From an uncultured Bacteroidota bacterium (GTDB taxonomy: Bacteria; Bacteroidota; Bacteroidia; Chitinophagales; LD1), in contig CAISWS010000309.1 of the NCBI GenBank assembly GCA_903889265.1, forward strand, positions 1-39,361: a stretch of 39,361 nucleotides of DNA, given 5' to 3'. Below, piece by piece: positions 7,215 to 14,006 of this stretch (positions are counted from its first letter, which is position 1; each line of letters opens with the position of its first letter). The translations under genes were made by a program, and so were the position numbers. Below the pieces are notes generated by a model. That model searched no databases, was not told the DNA's origin, and saw only the letters and a list, made by a program, of their open reading frames with translations.

Positions 7215-7928
7215 TTACCCCATCGGCGGCCTTTTCTTAAAATGCTTATTGCGGTTTTTGTTATTGTTATTACCACCGCCTTGCCCCTGGCCTCCACCTC
7301 CCTGGCGGAATTTGTTGTTATTGTTGTTGTTTTTGCGCGGGCCGTTGTTGTCCCTTTTGTCGGGGCCACTCTTCTGGCGGTTAGCACGGCTAAGGGAGTT
7401 AATATCCTGTTCATCCGAAATAACCAGTGCCCCTTTCGATAACAGGCGCAGGTCGTTTTTAATGGTTTCGTCGTTTACGTTTTCCTTGCTCCAGTTCTGG
7501 TATACAAGTTTCATAAAGTTACCTATGCACTGGGTAAAACCTGCCTGCTTTTCAGGGTCTTCGGTTTTAATGGCTTTGGCAACCAGTGTCTCCACATTTT
7601 TACCGTAGTGCTTGTATTTAATTCTCGATTGGGGATAGTGCAAACGCGCCGGCCTCTTTTCAATTTCTGCACGGTCTTTAATAGGGTATGGCGAGTCAAC
7701 ATCCAGTTTATAATCGCTCATAATAAAAAGATGGTCCCACAGCTTGTGGCGGAAATCTTCCACATTGCGCAGGTGGGGGTTTAACTGGCCCATCAGCTCA
7801 ATCAGCTCTTTGGCAAAAATGTTTCTCTTCTCGCGGTCTTTTATTTCCACGCAGGCTTCCACAATTTTTTGCACGTGGCGGCCATACTCTTTAAGCACTA
7901 ACTTGTTTCTGTTCGAATTATAATCCAT
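7215..7928 (-). CDS. DUF4290 family protein with Asn/Gly-rich tail
   Basis: The 237-residue protein begins MDYNSNRNKLVLKEYGRHVQ and matches what I know of the DUF4290 family, a Bacteroidota-restricted family of unknown function often encoded beside murA. The folded part (about residues 1-180) is predicted helical with no catalytic motif that I recognise. The last 50 residues are low-complexity: runs of Asn, Gly-Gln-Gly repeats and basic residues, ending KKRPPMG. This tail is probably disordered and, being basic and Gly/Asn-rich, could bind nucleic acid (inference only). Conserved neighbourhood suggests an envelope or growth-related job, but no function is established. Confidence 0.8.
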   Translation of the reverse strand: MDYNSNRNKLVLKEYGRHVQKIVEACVEIKDREKRNIFAKELIELMGQLNPHLRNVEDFRHKLWDHLFIMSDYKLDVDSPYPIKDRAEIEKRPARLHYPQSRIKYKHYGKNVETLVAKAIKTEDPEKQAGFTQCIGNFMKLVYQNWSKENVNDETIKNDLRLLSKGALVISDEQDINSLSRANRQKSGPDKRDNNGPRKNNNNNNKFRQGGGGQGQGGGNNNNKNRNKHFKKRPPMG

Positions 7929-8104: not shown

Positions 8105-8319
8105 GCAAATACCGTGAGAAATTTACCACTAAGGCACGCTTAGAAACTTTCTGAATTAAACCCCAATTCAATTTTACCGCAACAACGCTAAGAGCGCAAA
8201 GATGAATACAAAAGAAATTCTTTTAAAAAAGCATTTTCAATAACCAGCTTCTAAACCTTCGTGCAACTTAGTGCTCTTAGTGCATTAGTGGTAAATTTCG
8301 CTTCGCATTTGGTATTTGC
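8105..8319. repeat. 215-bp inverted-repeat element (MITE-like or palindromic repeat)
   Basis: This 391-bp intergenic gap (7929-8319) has no gene. Outer arms GCAAATACC (8105-8113) and GGTATTTGC (8311-8319), and inner arms at 8119-8137 (AAATTTACCACTAAGGCAC) and 8280-8298, are inverted copies; the inner arms match at 18 of 19 positions. Further inside, CTAAGAGCGC and GTGCTCTTAG also pair imperfectly. The element ends exactly where the stop codon of the surface-protein gene begins. It could fold into a long hairpin and end that transcript. No transposase is encoded. Confidence 0.6.
8187..8220 (+). repeat. Dispersed intergenic repeat, copy 1
   Basis: GCTAAGAGCGCAAAG followed by ATGAATACAAAAGAAATTC. 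Close copies occur at 19096-19130 and 21295-21325, all in plus orientation and all between genes. Confidence 0.55.
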
Positions 8320-10422
8320 TTACGGACAAGTGGGCCCCACAACAGCAGTACCGGTAACCGAATAAGGGAAAGTATTGCCGCGTATAGCACAACCCGCTGC
8401 ACCCCCATTACCCGGCGGACAAACGCCCGTACTACCTATACTGAAGAACCCAACCGCATTACCACCGGCCGAGCCGGCAGCACCCAGGGCCCCGCCATTA
8501 CCACCTGTGCCGGGATAATAAGTAGTGCCAAAACTTAAAAAGCAAGATACACCACATCCACCGGTTGCGCCACCGGTACCGCCCGTAGTGGCAGTTCCGT
8601 TATTACCGGCCGCGCACGATGCGCCACCGCCCCCATTGGTACCTCCCGGGCCAACTGCAGTCCCCGCACCACCACCGCCACCGGTTCCGGCTTTGTCGCT
8701 AAAGCAAGGGTTGCCACCGCTTAATCCGCCACCCGCACCACCGCCACCACCGCCACCGCCAATAGTACCGGTGTTGTTGATAGTAATACCTGCCGACCCT
8801 ATTGAAATAGCATCTCCTCCGGCTTGCCCGTCAACATTCGGGCAATTGGTAAAGGCACCGCCATAACCCGAGTCGCTGCCACCCATACCACCGGCACCGG
8901 CAATAATACCCGCATTGTCTATGGTAATCAGCGAGCCACCGGCAAAATTACCGGTATTCAAAGCAGGTAAAGTAGTGCTCGCGCTGCCAATGGTAACCCC
9001 ATTACCGATATTAACTGTTAACTGTACCGGGCAACTGGGCGAACCTGCCAGCGCCCAAAGGTTAACGTTGTTAGCCGAGGCCGTAATATTCATTACCGAA
9101 GGCGCTACAATTAAGGTGTAGTTGGTAGTGGTTTGCACCGCACCCAAAGTGGCAATAACCGTTACCACATATGTACCTGTTACGGCACACGATGATGACG
9201 TAAACGTAAGCGAAGTATTGCCCGGTATTATCAGCGTAGAGTTACCAAAAGCCGCAGTTACACCTGTAGGTAAACCGGCCACAGTTAAAATAGCGCTTGA
9301 AGTTGTTGCCCCGCACGAGCCCGGGTTGCCTATGGTTACGGTTGTTGCTGCCGTTAATACATTAGGCGCAAAACCCAGCTGGTTAACCGTTGCTGTAAGC
9401 GGTGCAACAGTAAGGTTGTAATCGTAAACAGTAAGCGTGTATGTTAAAGTTTGAATATTGGACCCCGAGGTAGCAAGCAAAGTAATAGTAAACGTACCGG
9501 TGGCTGCACTGGGCAAAGCTGTAAAAGTAACAACTGATACACCGGTAGGCGTAACATAATTGTTTGAAAAATTAACCAACACACCTGCAGGCACACCCGA
9601 TGCCGATAATATTACCGGCGCTGCTGTACCTGAAACCAGGGTTACCGTAAGGGTATCCGACACGCTGTTAAAATTGGTCCTTAAAAGACAATCGCTGTTA
9701 TGGCTTTCGGCAACAGCGTAATCAAACGAGCAAACCGTTTGCCCTACGTTAACCCAGCAGGTACCGTTCCAGAACTGGTGCACATTAAGCACGTTATTGT
9801 AAATGGTTAAACCCACTGCCGGTGCGGTTATTGCATCGCGCTGCGTGGTGGTAAGGCTGGGAAACAAAACCCCCTTGCTGGTACTCTGAATATCCAGTAT
9901 CGCATTGGCATTAGGCGCCGGTTGGTTAATACCTACGGCACCAGTGGTGGTCATACGCGCTACTTCAGTATTGTTTGATTTTATAACAACATCCTGTGCA
10001 TCGGTGGTGCCTACAAAATTACTGGCTGCATTGGTGCCCTGGTTACCACTTATAAGCCAGCCGGCATTAATGGTAGTTTTAATGCCACCGCTGCCATCCA
10101 CTATGGTTATAGTTCCGTTGGGATTATAATAAACGCTGTCCAAATGCCCGCCGCTGGTGCTTACGCAAAGGTTTTTCCAAACAGTTCCGTTATAGAAAAA
10201 ATCGCAGGCGCTATCCATGTCGTACACCACAAGGCCTGTTGCAGGCGTAGCTATGGCCAGGCGCTGAACACCACTCATGCGCGGAACCAGCAAACCCTGG
10301 CTGGTTGAAGTAAGGTCTAATATGGCACTGGCATCAGGATTAGGGGTGCCTATACCAACATTGCTTTGGCCAAATGAAAACTGACAAACGAGGGAGAATA
10401 ATATAAGGTATATATTTCTCAT
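8320..10422 (-). CDS. Secreted surface protein with duplicated N-terminal module, Ig-like repeats and a glycine-rich phage-adhesin-like C-terminus
   Basis: A 700-residue protein with a signal peptide (MRNIYLILFSLVCQFSFGQ). The module VGIGTPNPDASAILDL..QGLLVPRM occurs near residues 21-85 and again near 157-220 as VGINQPAPNANAILDI..KGVLFPSL; such modules are common in Bacteroidota surface proteins. Residues about 230-460 are Thr/Val-rich and look like Ig-type beta repeats. The last about 240 residues begin with NVNLWALAGSPS and VNIGNGVTIGSASTT, then runs of GGGGGG between TIDNAGIIAGAGG and INNTGTIGG segments, a pattern I know from phage tail-tip adhesins of the polyglycine type. No typical type IX C-terminal sorting domain is apparent. 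ATG 10422 is chosen over 10446 because the signal peptide starts there. Confidence 0.7.
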   Translation of the reverse strand: MRNIYLILFSLVCQFSFGQSNVGIGTPNPDASAILDLTSTSQGLLVPRMSGVQRLAIATPATGLVVYDMDSACDFFYNGTVWKNLCVSTSGGHLDSVYYNPNGTITIVDGSGGIKTTINAGWLISGNQGTNAASNFVGTTDAQDVVIKSNNTEVARMTTTGAVGINQPAPNANAILDIQSTSKGVLFPSLTTTQRDAITAPAVGLTIYNNVLNVHQFWNGTCWVNVGQTVCSFDYAVAESHNSDCLLRTNFNSVSDTLTVTLVSGTAAPVILSASGVPAGVLVNFSNNYVTPTGVSVVTFTALPSAATGTFTITLLATSGSNIQTLTYTLTVYDYNLTVAPLTATVNQLGFAPNVLTAATTVTIGNPGSCGATTSSAILTVAGLPTGVTAAFGNSTLIIPGNTSLTFTSSSCAVTGTYVVTVIATLGAVQTTTNYTLIVAPSVMNITASANNVNLWALAGSPSCPVQLTVNIGNGVTIGSASTTLPALNTGNFAGGSLITIDNAGIIAGAGGMGGSDSGYGGAFTNCPNVDGQAGGDAISIGSAGITINNTGTIGGGGGGGGAGGGLSGGNPCFSDKAGTGGGGGAGTAVGPGGTNGGGGASCAAGNNGTATTGGTGGATGGCGVSCFLSFGTTYYPGTGGNGGALGAAGSAGGNAVGFFSIGSTGVCPPGNGGAAGCAIRGNTFPYSVTGTAVVGPTCP

Positions 10423-10503
10423 ACATTTCACAAATTTGACCATCAATGTAAGTATTTTATTTTAATGGGTGGCGTTTTTTTAAACCTGAAGTTGCATGGG
10501 CAA

Positions 10504-11715
10504 TTAGTTATTGTAACTATAGCAGCTATCAATTACTTCGCCCGAAATAAGCTGGTAACCGGTGTGGTTATAATGTAAATCATGCGCCCAGTATAATTGC
10601 CTGGGGTCGGGTTGTGCTGCCAGCTTTGGCAAACAATCAACTACCCTGCAACCTTCAACGCTTTTAAGTTTACTTACCAGCATTTTGTAGTTGGTTAATG
10701 GGGTGTGCAATTCAACCCCCACCGGAAAGGTAATTACAACTACATCAATATTCTTAGCCCTTGCCCAGGGCAAAATATCAGTCTTTAACAGTCCTGTAAT
10801 CTTTTCAATTGCCTGCGCATTTATCTGCTTCTTTTCGGTGGCTGAACGCAGCGTATAATCAAAATCATGCAACTTCATTACACCCAACCTGAAAACATAA
10901 TTCACCGCAAATACAGGTTCCCACCACGGGTGCGCATTATACCGCAACATTCCATTGCTTATAAACCGTTCATTCCCCCCTCTTTCACCCACATCATTTA
11001 TATCGGTTGAATTGACTATAAAATCAACCTGCTTTACCTGGTATTTACGCACCAGTTTTTGCAGCATCATCCAATCAAAAAAAATATCATTTCCCGATAC
11101 CCCGCAATTCATAACATCAGTACCGGTATCATGTGCAGTTACGTATGCCCTTAAAAGTGCGGGTATGCTGCTATCGGCCGGTGCGCCGCATCCTTCGGTA
11201 AAAGAATCGCCCATTACCAGTATAATTTTTTTGTTGCCCACCGGTAATTTACCCCTGAAACCCAGCGCATTGAAGGTGTCATTTTTATAATGATAATCGC
11301 CCACATCATTATCCTTTACCTCACCCGAATCCGGTTCAAGCGTATAGGCATCGTGCCTGCCTTTTACGTATCGTATCCACAGGTTCTCATATTGCTGATA
11401 CCGGTCGGTAAGTATATAAACATCCCCGTTCTGCTCTCCGTAACTAATCGGGTACCTGATAATATACCGTAAGGTAAACTCGGCCGCAAAAAGGGCTATA
11501 AGCAATGTAAACCAGGCAACGCTAACGTTGGCCGAAACATTTAACCGCTTAACAATAAAATAAGAGATAACCCCTGTCAGCGAATACGTATAAACTGTAG
11601 TATAAAAAAACGACTCGCCCAAATACAGCTCAGCATATATCCAGATTCCTAATACCAGGTAAATACCCCAAAACGCCTTTTTATGACCTTTGATAAATGG
11701 AATTACTTTTTGCAT
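10504..11715 (-). CDS. Membrane-anchored SGNH/GDSL-type hydrolase
   Basis: The 403-residue protein has three hydrophobic segments in the first 85 residues (about 12-30, 33-52, 60-82). The SGNH block I appears as VMGDSFTEGCG with the nucleophile Ser, a block with NCGVSGND follows, and the C-terminal block is HDLHYNHTGYQ with the catalytic Asp and His. Members are esterases or O-acyltransferase-associated hydrolases acting on lipid or glycan esters outside the cytoplasm. The large domain after the membrane segments is probably periplasmic. It lies between the surface protein and the sterol-desaturase pair, same strand, with about 100 bp to the latter. Substrate unknown. Confidence 0.75.
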   Translation of the reverse strand: MQKVIPFIKGHKKAFWGIYLVLGIWIYAELYLGESFFYTTVYTYSLTGVISYFIVKRLNVSANVSVAWFTLLIALFAAEFTLRYIIRYPISYGEQNGDVYILTDRYQQYENLWIRYVKGRHDAYTLEPDSGEVKDNDVGDYHYKNDTFNALGFRGKLPVGNKKIILVMGDSFTEGCGAPADSSIPALLRAYVTAHDTGTDVMNCGVSGNDIFFDWMMLQKLVRKYQVKQVDFIVNSTDINDVGERGGNERFISNGMLRYNAHPWWEPVFAVNYVFRLGVMKLHDFDYTLRSATEKKQINAQAIEKITGLLKTDILPWARAKNIDVVVITFPVGVELHTPLTNYKMLVSKLKSVEGCRVVDCLPKLAAQPDPRQLYWAHDLHYNHTGYQLISGEVIDSCYSYNN

Positions 11716-11817
11716 TTGCAGGTATTAAAAAAATCAGTTCGGGCTTCGCCAGGCATAAAAATAAAGTGCTGGTAATGCTACCTGCAAAATAGCATTTAGC
11801 TGGCAATAGATAAATTC

Positions 11818-12711
11818 CTATTTCCCCTCCTTCATATTTCTTCTCAGCGTCTTAGCCCGCAAGTCCGGCCCGTCGTGGCTCCAGCCCGGTGAGTAGAAGA
11901 TATATTTCAGCTTATCTGAAAAAGTTGGTGCCCTTTTTACATCTCTCCACACATCAATGTATTCATGAGACGCAATTTTAAACAGGTTATGGGTGTTAAT
12001 GTTTTTTGTAATGCCATAGATGGGCTTTTCCTCATCCAGCTCAGGCGAAAAGGTGCCAAACATACGGTCCCATATAACCAGTATACCGGCGTGGTTCTGG
12101 TCCAGGTAACGGATGTTGGAGGCATGGTGAACGCGGTGGTGAGAGGGAGTATTAAAAATAAACTCGTACCAGCCCGGCAGCCTTTTAATTAATTCGGTAT
12201 GCACCCAGTATTGATAAATAAGCGAAATACTCATCATCATCAACATCATCAGCGGGTTAAAGCCCACCAGCGGCATCCACAGCCACCAGATGTATTTATA
12301 AAACTGTTCGCCCCAGCTTTGGCGCAACGCAGTGGCCAGGTTTAAGGTTTGCGATGAATGATGATTTACATGCGCCGCCCAAAGTATCCTTATCTCATGA
12401 CTGAAACGGTGGTGCCAGTAAAAAGTAAAATCATCGGCAAAAACTATCAGCACCCAGCTCCACCAGTGCCAGCCTATTTCAAACAAGCGGTATTGGTATA
12501 GCAAAGTGTAAGTTCCATAGGCAAGCCCCTTGGTTAAAATATCAATTACCAGTGAGCCTAAGCCCATGCCAATTGACGACATAGCCTCTTTCGATTCATA
12601 CAGGTTTAAATGTTCGCGCCAATTGATAAAAAGCTCTATCGAAATCAAAATGATAAAGAAAGGAATAGCCCATACTACGGGGTCCTGAAGGGGAGGCATT
12701 GACTTAAACAT
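11818..12711 (-). CDS. Sterol desaturase / fatty acid hydroxylase family protein (copy 2 of tandem pair)
   Basis: A 297-residue integral membrane protein with the eight-histidine di-iron motifs of the family: HHRFSHE, HVNHHS and HRVHH. These enzymes hydroxylate or desaturate lipids using O2; bacterial substrates range from sterols and carotenoids to fatty acyl groups. The protein shares extensive local identity with the upstream neighbour (for example FNTPSHHRVHH and NHAG.LVIWDRMFGTF), so the two arose by duplication. The start codon follows the upstream stop by 3 bp, so they are almost certainly cotranscribed. The protein ends about 120 residues earlier than its partner. Confidence 0.88.
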   Translation of the reverse strand: MFKSMPPLQDPVVWAIPFFIILISIELFINWREHLNLYESKEAMSSIGMGLGSLVIDILTKGLAYGTYTLLYQYRLFEIGWHWWSWVLIVFADDFTFYWHHRFSHEIRILWAAHVNHHSSQTLNLATALRQSWGEQFYKYIWWLWMPLVGFNPLMMLMMMSISLIYQYWVHTELIKRLPGWYEFIFNTPSHHRVHHASNIRYLDQNHAGILVIWDRMFGTFSPELDEEKPIYGITKNINTHNLFKIASHEYIDVWRDVKRAPTFSDKLKYIFYSPGWSHDGPDLRAKTLRRNMKEGK

Positions 12712-12714
12712 AAT

Positions 12715-13980
12715 CTATACGGTTTGGGTTTTATACTCGCTGTTTGCGGCTTGCAATTTAAATTCATCCAGGTAAAAACTAAACCACACCAGCGAAATAA
12801 GTGAAATTACAATGGTTGAAATTCCAAGTGCATTACTGAGTGTTTCATTATTCAACAGAACTATAATTACAACGGCAAGTATAACAATACGGGCATACTC
12901 TAAAAACAACACCCATCGCTTTTTCTCAAATATACCACCAATATTCATCAGCGAAAACACAATAAGCCCGGCCAGCGATACCTTTAATGCAAGGCTATCA
13001 TTAATAGGGCTCTTCCCCTGAAAAACCAGAAAAGAAGTAGACGCTATCAGAATAATAATAAACTGAAACAGCACATAATAATTTAACCCCGGCGAAATTT
13101 CAGTATCGTATTTATGAAACGTCTCTGGCGTTACAGGCTTGGGTTCGCTTACACCGCCTAACTCCTCGGGTTTCCAGCCCGGCATTTTTACCAGCATTAA
13201 AACGGCATGGCCTGCTCCGCGCACTTTCAATAAATCTTTTCCAAGGTCAACCCAGTACTCAAAGTTGGTCCAAATGGGGTTCCAGCTTTTTACCTGTTTG
13301 GTAATGCCATACACCACCTCCTCCTGTTCAGGCTCAAAAGTGCCAAACATGCGGTCCCATATAATTAAAGTGCCTGCGTGGTTTTTATCAATATACTGCG
13401 GGTTAACCCCGTGGTGTACCCGGTGGTGGCTTGGCGTATTAAAAATATATTCAAACGGTGCAGGCATTTTATTTATCAGCTTGGTATGTATCCAAAACTG
13501 ATACAGCGTAATAACCTGCGACACCACAAAAAACATAACCGGGTTAAAGCCCAGCACCGCCAGCGGCAAATAAAAAACAAAAGAGAAAGCGCCCTGATAC
13601 CAGGCCTGCCGCAAGGCCACGGTAAGGTTATACTCTTCGCTTTGATGGTGCACGGCATGGCTTCCCCACATAATACTTATTTCATGCGCTAACCGGTGAA
13701 ACCAGTAATAAAAAAAATCGGCACCAAAAAATAACAGCACATATACCCACCATGCATTCGGTATTTTTCCGTTCAGCGGCGAAATTTCAAACAGTTTAAT
13801 ATAAACCAGCACCGTAAGGGTTTTTAAAAACACACCCGTTACCGTTGAGCCTATGCCCAGGCTTAAATTGGTTACGGCATCGTTAAACCGGTAGTAACTC
13901 AGCTTCTTCATCCTGGTTATCAGCAACTCAACGCCAATAAGCAGAAAGAAAACCGGAATGGCATAAATAATGAGGTTCAT
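12715..13980 (-). CDS. Sterol desaturase / fatty acid hydroxylase family protein with extra C-terminal membrane domain (copy 1)
   Basis: A 421-residue membrane protein with the histidine boxes HRLAHE, HAVHHQSE and HRVHH. After the catalytic domain (about residues 1-290) comes an added region with about four hydrophobic segments (NYYVLFQFIIILIAS, the ALKVSLAGLIVFSLM stretch, VLFLEYARIVILAVV, IVISLISLVWFSFYL), absent from the downstream paralogue. ATG 13980 is preferred over an upstream TTG at 14001. A minus-strand TAnnTTTG-like element lies at 13999-14006, which would give a very short leader. Substrate unknown; an envelope lipid is likely. Confidence 0.88.
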   Translation of the reverse strand: MNLIIYAIPVFFLLIGVELLITRMKKLSYYRFNDAVTNLSLGIGSTVTGVFLKTLTVLVYIKLFEISPLNGKIPNAWWVYVLLFFGADFFYYWFHRLAHEISIMWGSHAVHHQSEEYNLTVALRQAWYQGAFSFVFYLPLAVLGFNPVMFFVVSQVITLYQFWIHTKLINKMPAPFEYIFNTPSHHRVHHGVNPQYIDKNHAGTLIIWDRMFGTFEPEQEEVVYGITKQVKSWNPIWTNFEYWVDLGKDLLKVRGAGHAVLMLVKMPGWKPEELGGVSEPKPVTPETFHKYDTEISPGLNYYVLFQFIIILIASTSFLVFQGKSPINDSLALKVSLAGLIVFSLMNIGGIFEKKRWVLFLEYARIVILAVVIIVLLNNETLSNALGISTIVISLISLVWFSFYLDEFKLQAANSEYKTQTV

Positions 13981-13998
13981 GGTTGGGTACTTGACAAG

Positions 13999-14006
13999 CA
14001 AAGATA
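13999..14006 (-). promoter_or_regulatory. Possible -7 element for the sterol-desaturase pair
   Basis: CAAAGATA on the plus strand reads TATCTTTG on the minus strand, matching TAnnTTTG, 19 bp upstream of the ATG. No TTG was found at the expected -33 distance, so this is weak. Confidence 0.3.

Follow-up and report, generated by a model that had tools for sequence, protein, structure and literature searches.

A predicted gp38-type polyglycine-sandwich domain at the tip of an exported Bacteroidota protein

When the structure of the phage S16 adhesin was solved, its polyglycine-II sandwich was reportedly called rare. The locus described here raises the question whether a bacterium encodes a domain of this kind on an exported protein of its own, and what such a protein might do. 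The window, the whole stretch of DNA that was analysed, comprises 39,361 nucleotides of an uncultured Bacteroidota bacterium, and the gene in question occupies positions 8320 to 10422 of its minus strand. It encodes 700 amino acids from an ATG at 10422 to a stop codon at 8320-8322, as judged from the open reading frame call and the equivalent methionine of the orthologues. An upstream TTG extends the reading frame to 8320-10446 (minus strand, 708 amino acids); the ATG eight codons further in is likely to be the translation start, and residue numbers used here, such as 454-708, are counted from the TTG of the 708 amino acid frame. The explanation which we prefer, and regard as probable, is that a freshwater Bacteroidota lineage has domesticated a gp38-type receptor-binding domain as part of a fibre-like adhesin which it secretes.

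Pfam and NCBIfam scans named no family in the window protein. Its parts all lie on the minus strand. A predicted signal peptide, MRNIYLILFSLVCQFSFG (10369-10422, from sequence and orthologues), would be cleaved before a glutamine and has no lipobox cysteine. It is followed by module 1 (10156-10368; NVGIGTPNP...GLLVPR...QR..I..PATGLVVYD...W..LC) with two invariant cysteines, a linker or shaft region (9955-10155) and module 2 (9727-9954). The duplication of N-terminal modules claimed in the earlier note is borne out, as these modules of about 70 amino acids share 48% identity over 64 amino acids (E 4e-21). The Ig-like repeats proposed at the same time correspond to two Ig-like domains supported by the full-length structure model, the first at 9421-9726 (beta-strands in the model, tandem Ig proteins in Foldseek and a weak PF17753 Ig match, E 0.011) and the second at 9088-9420 (model and Foldseek). 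The C-terminus of 255 amino acids, residues 454-708 (8323-9087), is glycine-rich and was assigned as a gp38-type beta-helix plus polyglycine-II sandwich domain by PHROG, hhalign, AF2 and Foldseek. It holds an octaglycine stretch (residues 563-570, 8737-8760) which aligns with the long glycine-rich motif 3 of gp38. The motifs on which a resemblance to phage adhesins had been proposed, NVNLWALAGSPS, GVTIGSASTTLPALNTG, TIDNAGIIAGAGG and INNTGTIGGGGGGGG, all occur in the translation within residues 454-571.

With 36% glycine in residues 520-708 spurious matches are possible, and the tail might be a convergent low-complexity sequence without homology to gp38. A PHROG profile search of the window protein retrieved phrog_10745 (E 2e-14, residues 433-583) and the tail fiber protein family phrog_11439 (E 1.5e-13, residues 470-694), and none of three shuffled C-termini gave a PHROG match. 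The 67 amino acid stretch of ordinary composition which precedes the glycine-rich part matches by itself, with E values of 5.6e-10 for phrog_10745 and 1.7e-7 for phrog_11439. S16 gp38, taken from its genome record, also matches phrog_10745 (8.8e-5), with phrog_11439 being marginal (0.046). When 12 domains of the orthologues were aligned as a profile with six T-even gp38 sequences, hhalign gave 95.4% probability, E 2e-8 and a score of 61.4 over 145 columns, as compared to at most 19.7 in 60 column shuffles and at most 32.5 in 60 shuffles in which every glycine column was kept fixed. A second, shorter family of cellular proteins scored 56.8 in the gp38 profile comparison versus at most 37.4. The C-terminal shuffles and the glycine-pattern controls thus refute chance composition, and together with the separate match of the 67 amino acid segment and the fold match described below they leave a convergent tail barely credible. 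The domain is homologous to phage tail-fibre domains, as the earlier note had suspected.

The window protein has no match to Pfam GP38 (PF05268) at E values up to 1; its domain is therefore classed as homologous, and the protein itself is not counted in the family that Pfam defines. The PF05268 cut-off is exceeded by two phage relatives (L072, L100), two prophage tail proteins (L113, L114) and one protein of the cellular short family (L082, contig C127 of genome G039). Sequence searches of the PDB by phmmer and a mixed profile returned nothing, gp38 being reached only by fold and profile-profile comparison. A tblastn search of phage records with the C-terminus found no match, very likely owing to the low-complexity filter.

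The gp38 crystal structures consist of a beta-helix and a polyglycine-II lattice with loops which determine host specificity (PMC6851490; PMC12892980); glycine-rich motif 3 of S16 gp38 is 151-GGGGGGGG-158 (PMC6851490). An AF2 model of residues 454-708, from an alignment of 16 rows of which four were phage sequences, had a pLDDT of 89.1 and a pTM of 0.85. Foldseek comparison with the PDB yielded PP01 gp38 (9v85; E 2e-11, TM 0.67 by target length for chain C) and S16 gp38 (6f45_D; E 8e-8, TM 0.60) as sole significant matches, the next one having an E value of 3. The TM values are moderate, and two further caveats are that 6f45 may already have been familiar to AF2 and that phage rows were part of its input. 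Twenty viral models matched below 0.001, including some named as Gp38 or as tail fibre proteins. In the full-length model, which is poor at residues 1-240 (pLDDT about 30-65), 6f45 again ranked first. The glycine-helix sandwich anticipated for the tip is thus what the model predicts, and a gp38-type fold is strongly supported by the modelling.

A polyglycine sandwich could also serve a structural purpose. The protein might face the membrane or form part of a matrix, an S-layer-like array or an envelope coat, as has been proposed for mycobacterial PGRS proteins, whose domains, proposed to be polyglycine-II sandwiches, are located at the envelope (PMC9436101). A coat or matrix protein could well be built of Ig-like domains and repeat modules. 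The domain, however, matches the gp38 layout closely, with beta-helix strands ahead of two glycine motifs, then a second strand pair, octaglycine and a closing cap, and we consider a structural role unlikely.

The most likely function is that of an adhesin. N-terminal repeat modules, in some orthologues collagen-like shafts, and the two Ig-like domains would build a stalk. At its tip a lattice of polyglycine-II helices would emerge from a short beta-helix, and variable loops would line the edge of the lattice. As in gp38, these loops would most likely bind an outer-membrane protein or a glycan as ligand, presented by another cell or by a surface, and by such binding the protein would act as an adhesin or recognition factor.

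Comparison of the orthologues is compatible with this picture. Module 2 and the first Ig-like domain are the best-conserved parts, with 74-76% mean pairwise identity, and module 2 in addition has weaker matches to phage structural families (phrog_20787, phrog_25721; 5e-6 and 1.5e-5). Conservation is lowest at the non-glycine positions of residues 517-680, with 36% pairwise identity versus 46-75% elsewhere. The receptor loops between the glycine motifs of gp38 are likewise hypervariable, and the low conservation could be drift instead of selection. The long orthologues vary in their shafts. The number of modules is two or three, and four orthologues have 11 to 43 collagen-like GXY triplets which replace or extend the shaft; these repeats suggest that the proteins may form trimers. 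Eleven cysteines, seven before the tip and four within it, are invariant across 12 orthologues, which is consistent with oxidation of the protein after it has left the cytoplasm.

Export is expected to start at the Sec pathway, given the predicted signal peptide. All long orthologues but one, in which the start is unclear, have X-Gln at the equivalent cleavage site, in agreement with the Q-rule of Bacteroidetes signal peptides (PMC5837995). The earlier note had seen no T9SS sorting domain, and Pfam and NCBIfam indeed find neither type A nor type B on the reading frame. Elsewhere the genome holds at least 150 type A and 45 above-cut-off type B sorting domains, and, judged by position, none falls on the paralogues which share the N-terminal module. 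As the T9SS is present and the sorting domain is absent from the window protein and these paralogues, passage beyond the periplasm is unexplained, and exposure on the surface is presumed from the architecture.

The gene lies among chromosomal housekeeping genes. Its neighbours encode DnaJ, GrpE, an EPSP-synthase-family (MurA-type) enzyme, a DUF4290 protein, an SGNH hydrolase, fatty acid hydroxylases and a DNA polymerase III subunit. The DUF4290 protein (7215-7928) has a low-complexity tail rich in asparagine and glycine, NNNNKFRQGGGGQGQGGGNNNN, and at 11818-14001 two related fatty acid hydroxylase genes adjoin each other, one of which has a weak C-terminal match to alkylglycerol monooxygenase. 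In the genus mate G009 the flanks equivalent to 8110 and 11817 are only about 550 bases apart by blastn, and G001 also has no such segment at this place. The gene and the SGNH hydrolase gene thus form an accessory segment here (8111-11816). The hydrolase gene (10504-11715) has several diverged copies in the genome, with nine matches.

Phage-type domains might be expected of a prophage remnant, or of the tail fibre of a host-encoded contractile injection system or tailocin, and genuine prophage tail proteins with the domain do occur in other Bacteroidota (L113-L116). Nearly all orthologues, however, carry a signal peptide, they are kept in several genera, the neighbours are of the housekeeping type, and the contractile-sheath family PF04984 has no match in the genome, the control being positive in three reference genomes. 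For the tail-tube family PF06841 the control itself was silent. On the strength of the signal peptides, the neighbourhood and the missing sheath the remnant or fibre is largely refuted, and we rate it as highly improbable.

The accessory presence at the locus would also be compatible with a phage-defence factor, an exported receptor-binding domain which would block adsorption, for instance by occupying the phage receptors of the cell itself. A host that releases or displays a phage-type domain could thereby mask the receptor, and a protein without a T9SS signal might work in soluble form or in the periplasm. No defence genes were seen in the neighbourhood, though, the stalk architecture suggests display, and the domain has long been maintained in divergent hosts; we consider a role in defence improbable.

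How widely the gene is maintained became apparent from its cellular relatives. A contig scan with the single window protein found none; relatives came to light in a scan with the conserved middle region. Of 30 genomes of the bacterial family, 23 have the tip domain, in two forms. The long family, the orthologues of the window gene, comprises proteins of 693-872 amino acids from 12 genomes in three genera; its named records are uncultured Bacteroidetes metagenome bins. The short family, of about 490 amino acids, includes a paralogue on contig C499 of the same genome and extends to four other families of the order. Short-family proteins resemble the window protein in having a signal peptide, the N-terminal module in one copy and a glycine-rich gp38-like C-terminus (hhalign 98% to the long family); they differ by a short stalk, hydrophobic loops inserted in the domain, a conserved DUF4412 neighbour and a wider distribution in the order. 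At 13 of 15 loci inspected in the bacterial family, a count limited by contig ends, a DUF4412-type gene adjoins the short-family gene, and in three other bacterial families the short-family gene is again followed by a DUF4412 gene. This argues for a maintained cellular protein and not for a prophage remnant. Contig C499 itself (L012, 2753-4907) encodes a 489 amino acid polyglycine-tip protein followed by the DUF4412 gene, a pair conserved across several families of the order. This short gene also adjoins one whose product combines SprB repeats with a type B sorting domain, and beside the latter gene lies one resembling PorP/SprF by eye.

Module 1 is common to further paralogues in the same genome. 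A family of exported proteins (L013-L017) shares it and has exchangeable C-termini, with collagen repeats, an S74 chaperone or a tail-collar-like part. The Bacteroidota 'tail fiber domain' proteins with collagen and S74 have the same N-terminal module, in this genome on contigs C217 (with Pfam S74 and Collagen), C119 and C340; their C-termini are S74, collagen or other domains instead of the glycine sandwich.

Phage relatives carry the domain too. On viral contigs L070, L072, L098 and L100 it occurs in proteins of 262-408 amino acids, several of them amid virion-structural-looking genes; the number of viral relatives given by the polyglycine-pattern scan is a minimum. The relatives on phage contigs (L070, L072, L098-L100) are 41-47% identical to the window domain in the best-aligned part. 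Prophage-like tail proteins of another Bacteroidota family (L113-L116) have a GP38-like domain at the C-terminus. Among the matches listed, uncultured Caudovirales tail proteins (PHROGs 10745 and 11439; L070, L072, L098, L100, L113-L115) are the closest sequence relatives and share the beginning (NVNLFTLVGSP...GITVSS...GNFPTGS) and the end of the window domain; they differ in that their genes belong to phages or prophages, that they are joined to virion proteins or encoded among these, and that no signal peptide is apparent. The occurrence throughout the bacterial family, the second cellular family and the sharing of the domain with phage tail proteins all go beyond what had been noted earlier.

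A tree built from 38 domains has the long family as one clade (98/95) and the short family as another (100/99), separated by phage sequences. Union of both cellular families in one clade apart from the phages was neither rejected (p 0.26) nor supported, which leaves one or two captures. Because the domain is broadly present in phages, transfer from phage to bacterium is the likely direction. A wider scheme may be put forward tentatively, in which Bacteroidota captured a phage receptor-binding domain at least once, possibly twice, and turned it into a maintained recognition system with diversifying loops, displayed on fibre-like proteins which have the N-terminal module in common, carry exchangeable tips (glycine sandwich, collagen, S74) and exit the cell by some path that does not use the known T9SS sorting domain.

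In literature searches, with subscription journals mostly outside their scope, no report of a gp38-type domain in Bacteroidota surface proteins was found. In the present case two families of exported bacterial proteins have the polyglycine-II sandwich as a conserved component, one of them with an Ig-like stalk. The findings also suggest that Bacteroidota export a class of tail-fibre-like proteins which lack T9SS signals. Should the tip prove to bind a ligand, cells would be seen to employ phage receptor-binding folds for recognition tasks of their own, and the orthologues, which differ in their loops, make specificity testable.

Two known systems may be compared by fold. Mycobacterial PE_PGRS proteins are likewise exported bacterial proteins with a proposed polyglycine-II sandwich (PMC9436101); compared by description, they differ in having a PE domain, of which the Pfam scan of the window protein shows none, in place of signal peptide and Ig stalk, and in their longer repeats. 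T-even gp38 (PF05268; S16 6f45, PP01 9v85) shares with the window domain the beta-helix and polyglycine-II sandwich, the octaglycine motif, the two early glycine motifs followed by a long run of further ones, the GGAAG-type closing cap and the variable loops. It is a stand-alone protein of about 250 amino acids which caps the gp37 trimer via N-terminal helices. The gp37-docking domain with its conserved tryptophan is absent from the window protein, where Ig-like domains and modules precede residue 454, and in place of the gene 37 adjacency seen in phage, chromosomal housekeeping genes surround the window gene. Unlike gp38, the window protein has its domain joined to Ig-like domains and modules that follow a signal peptide, and it is encoded on a bacterial chromosome.
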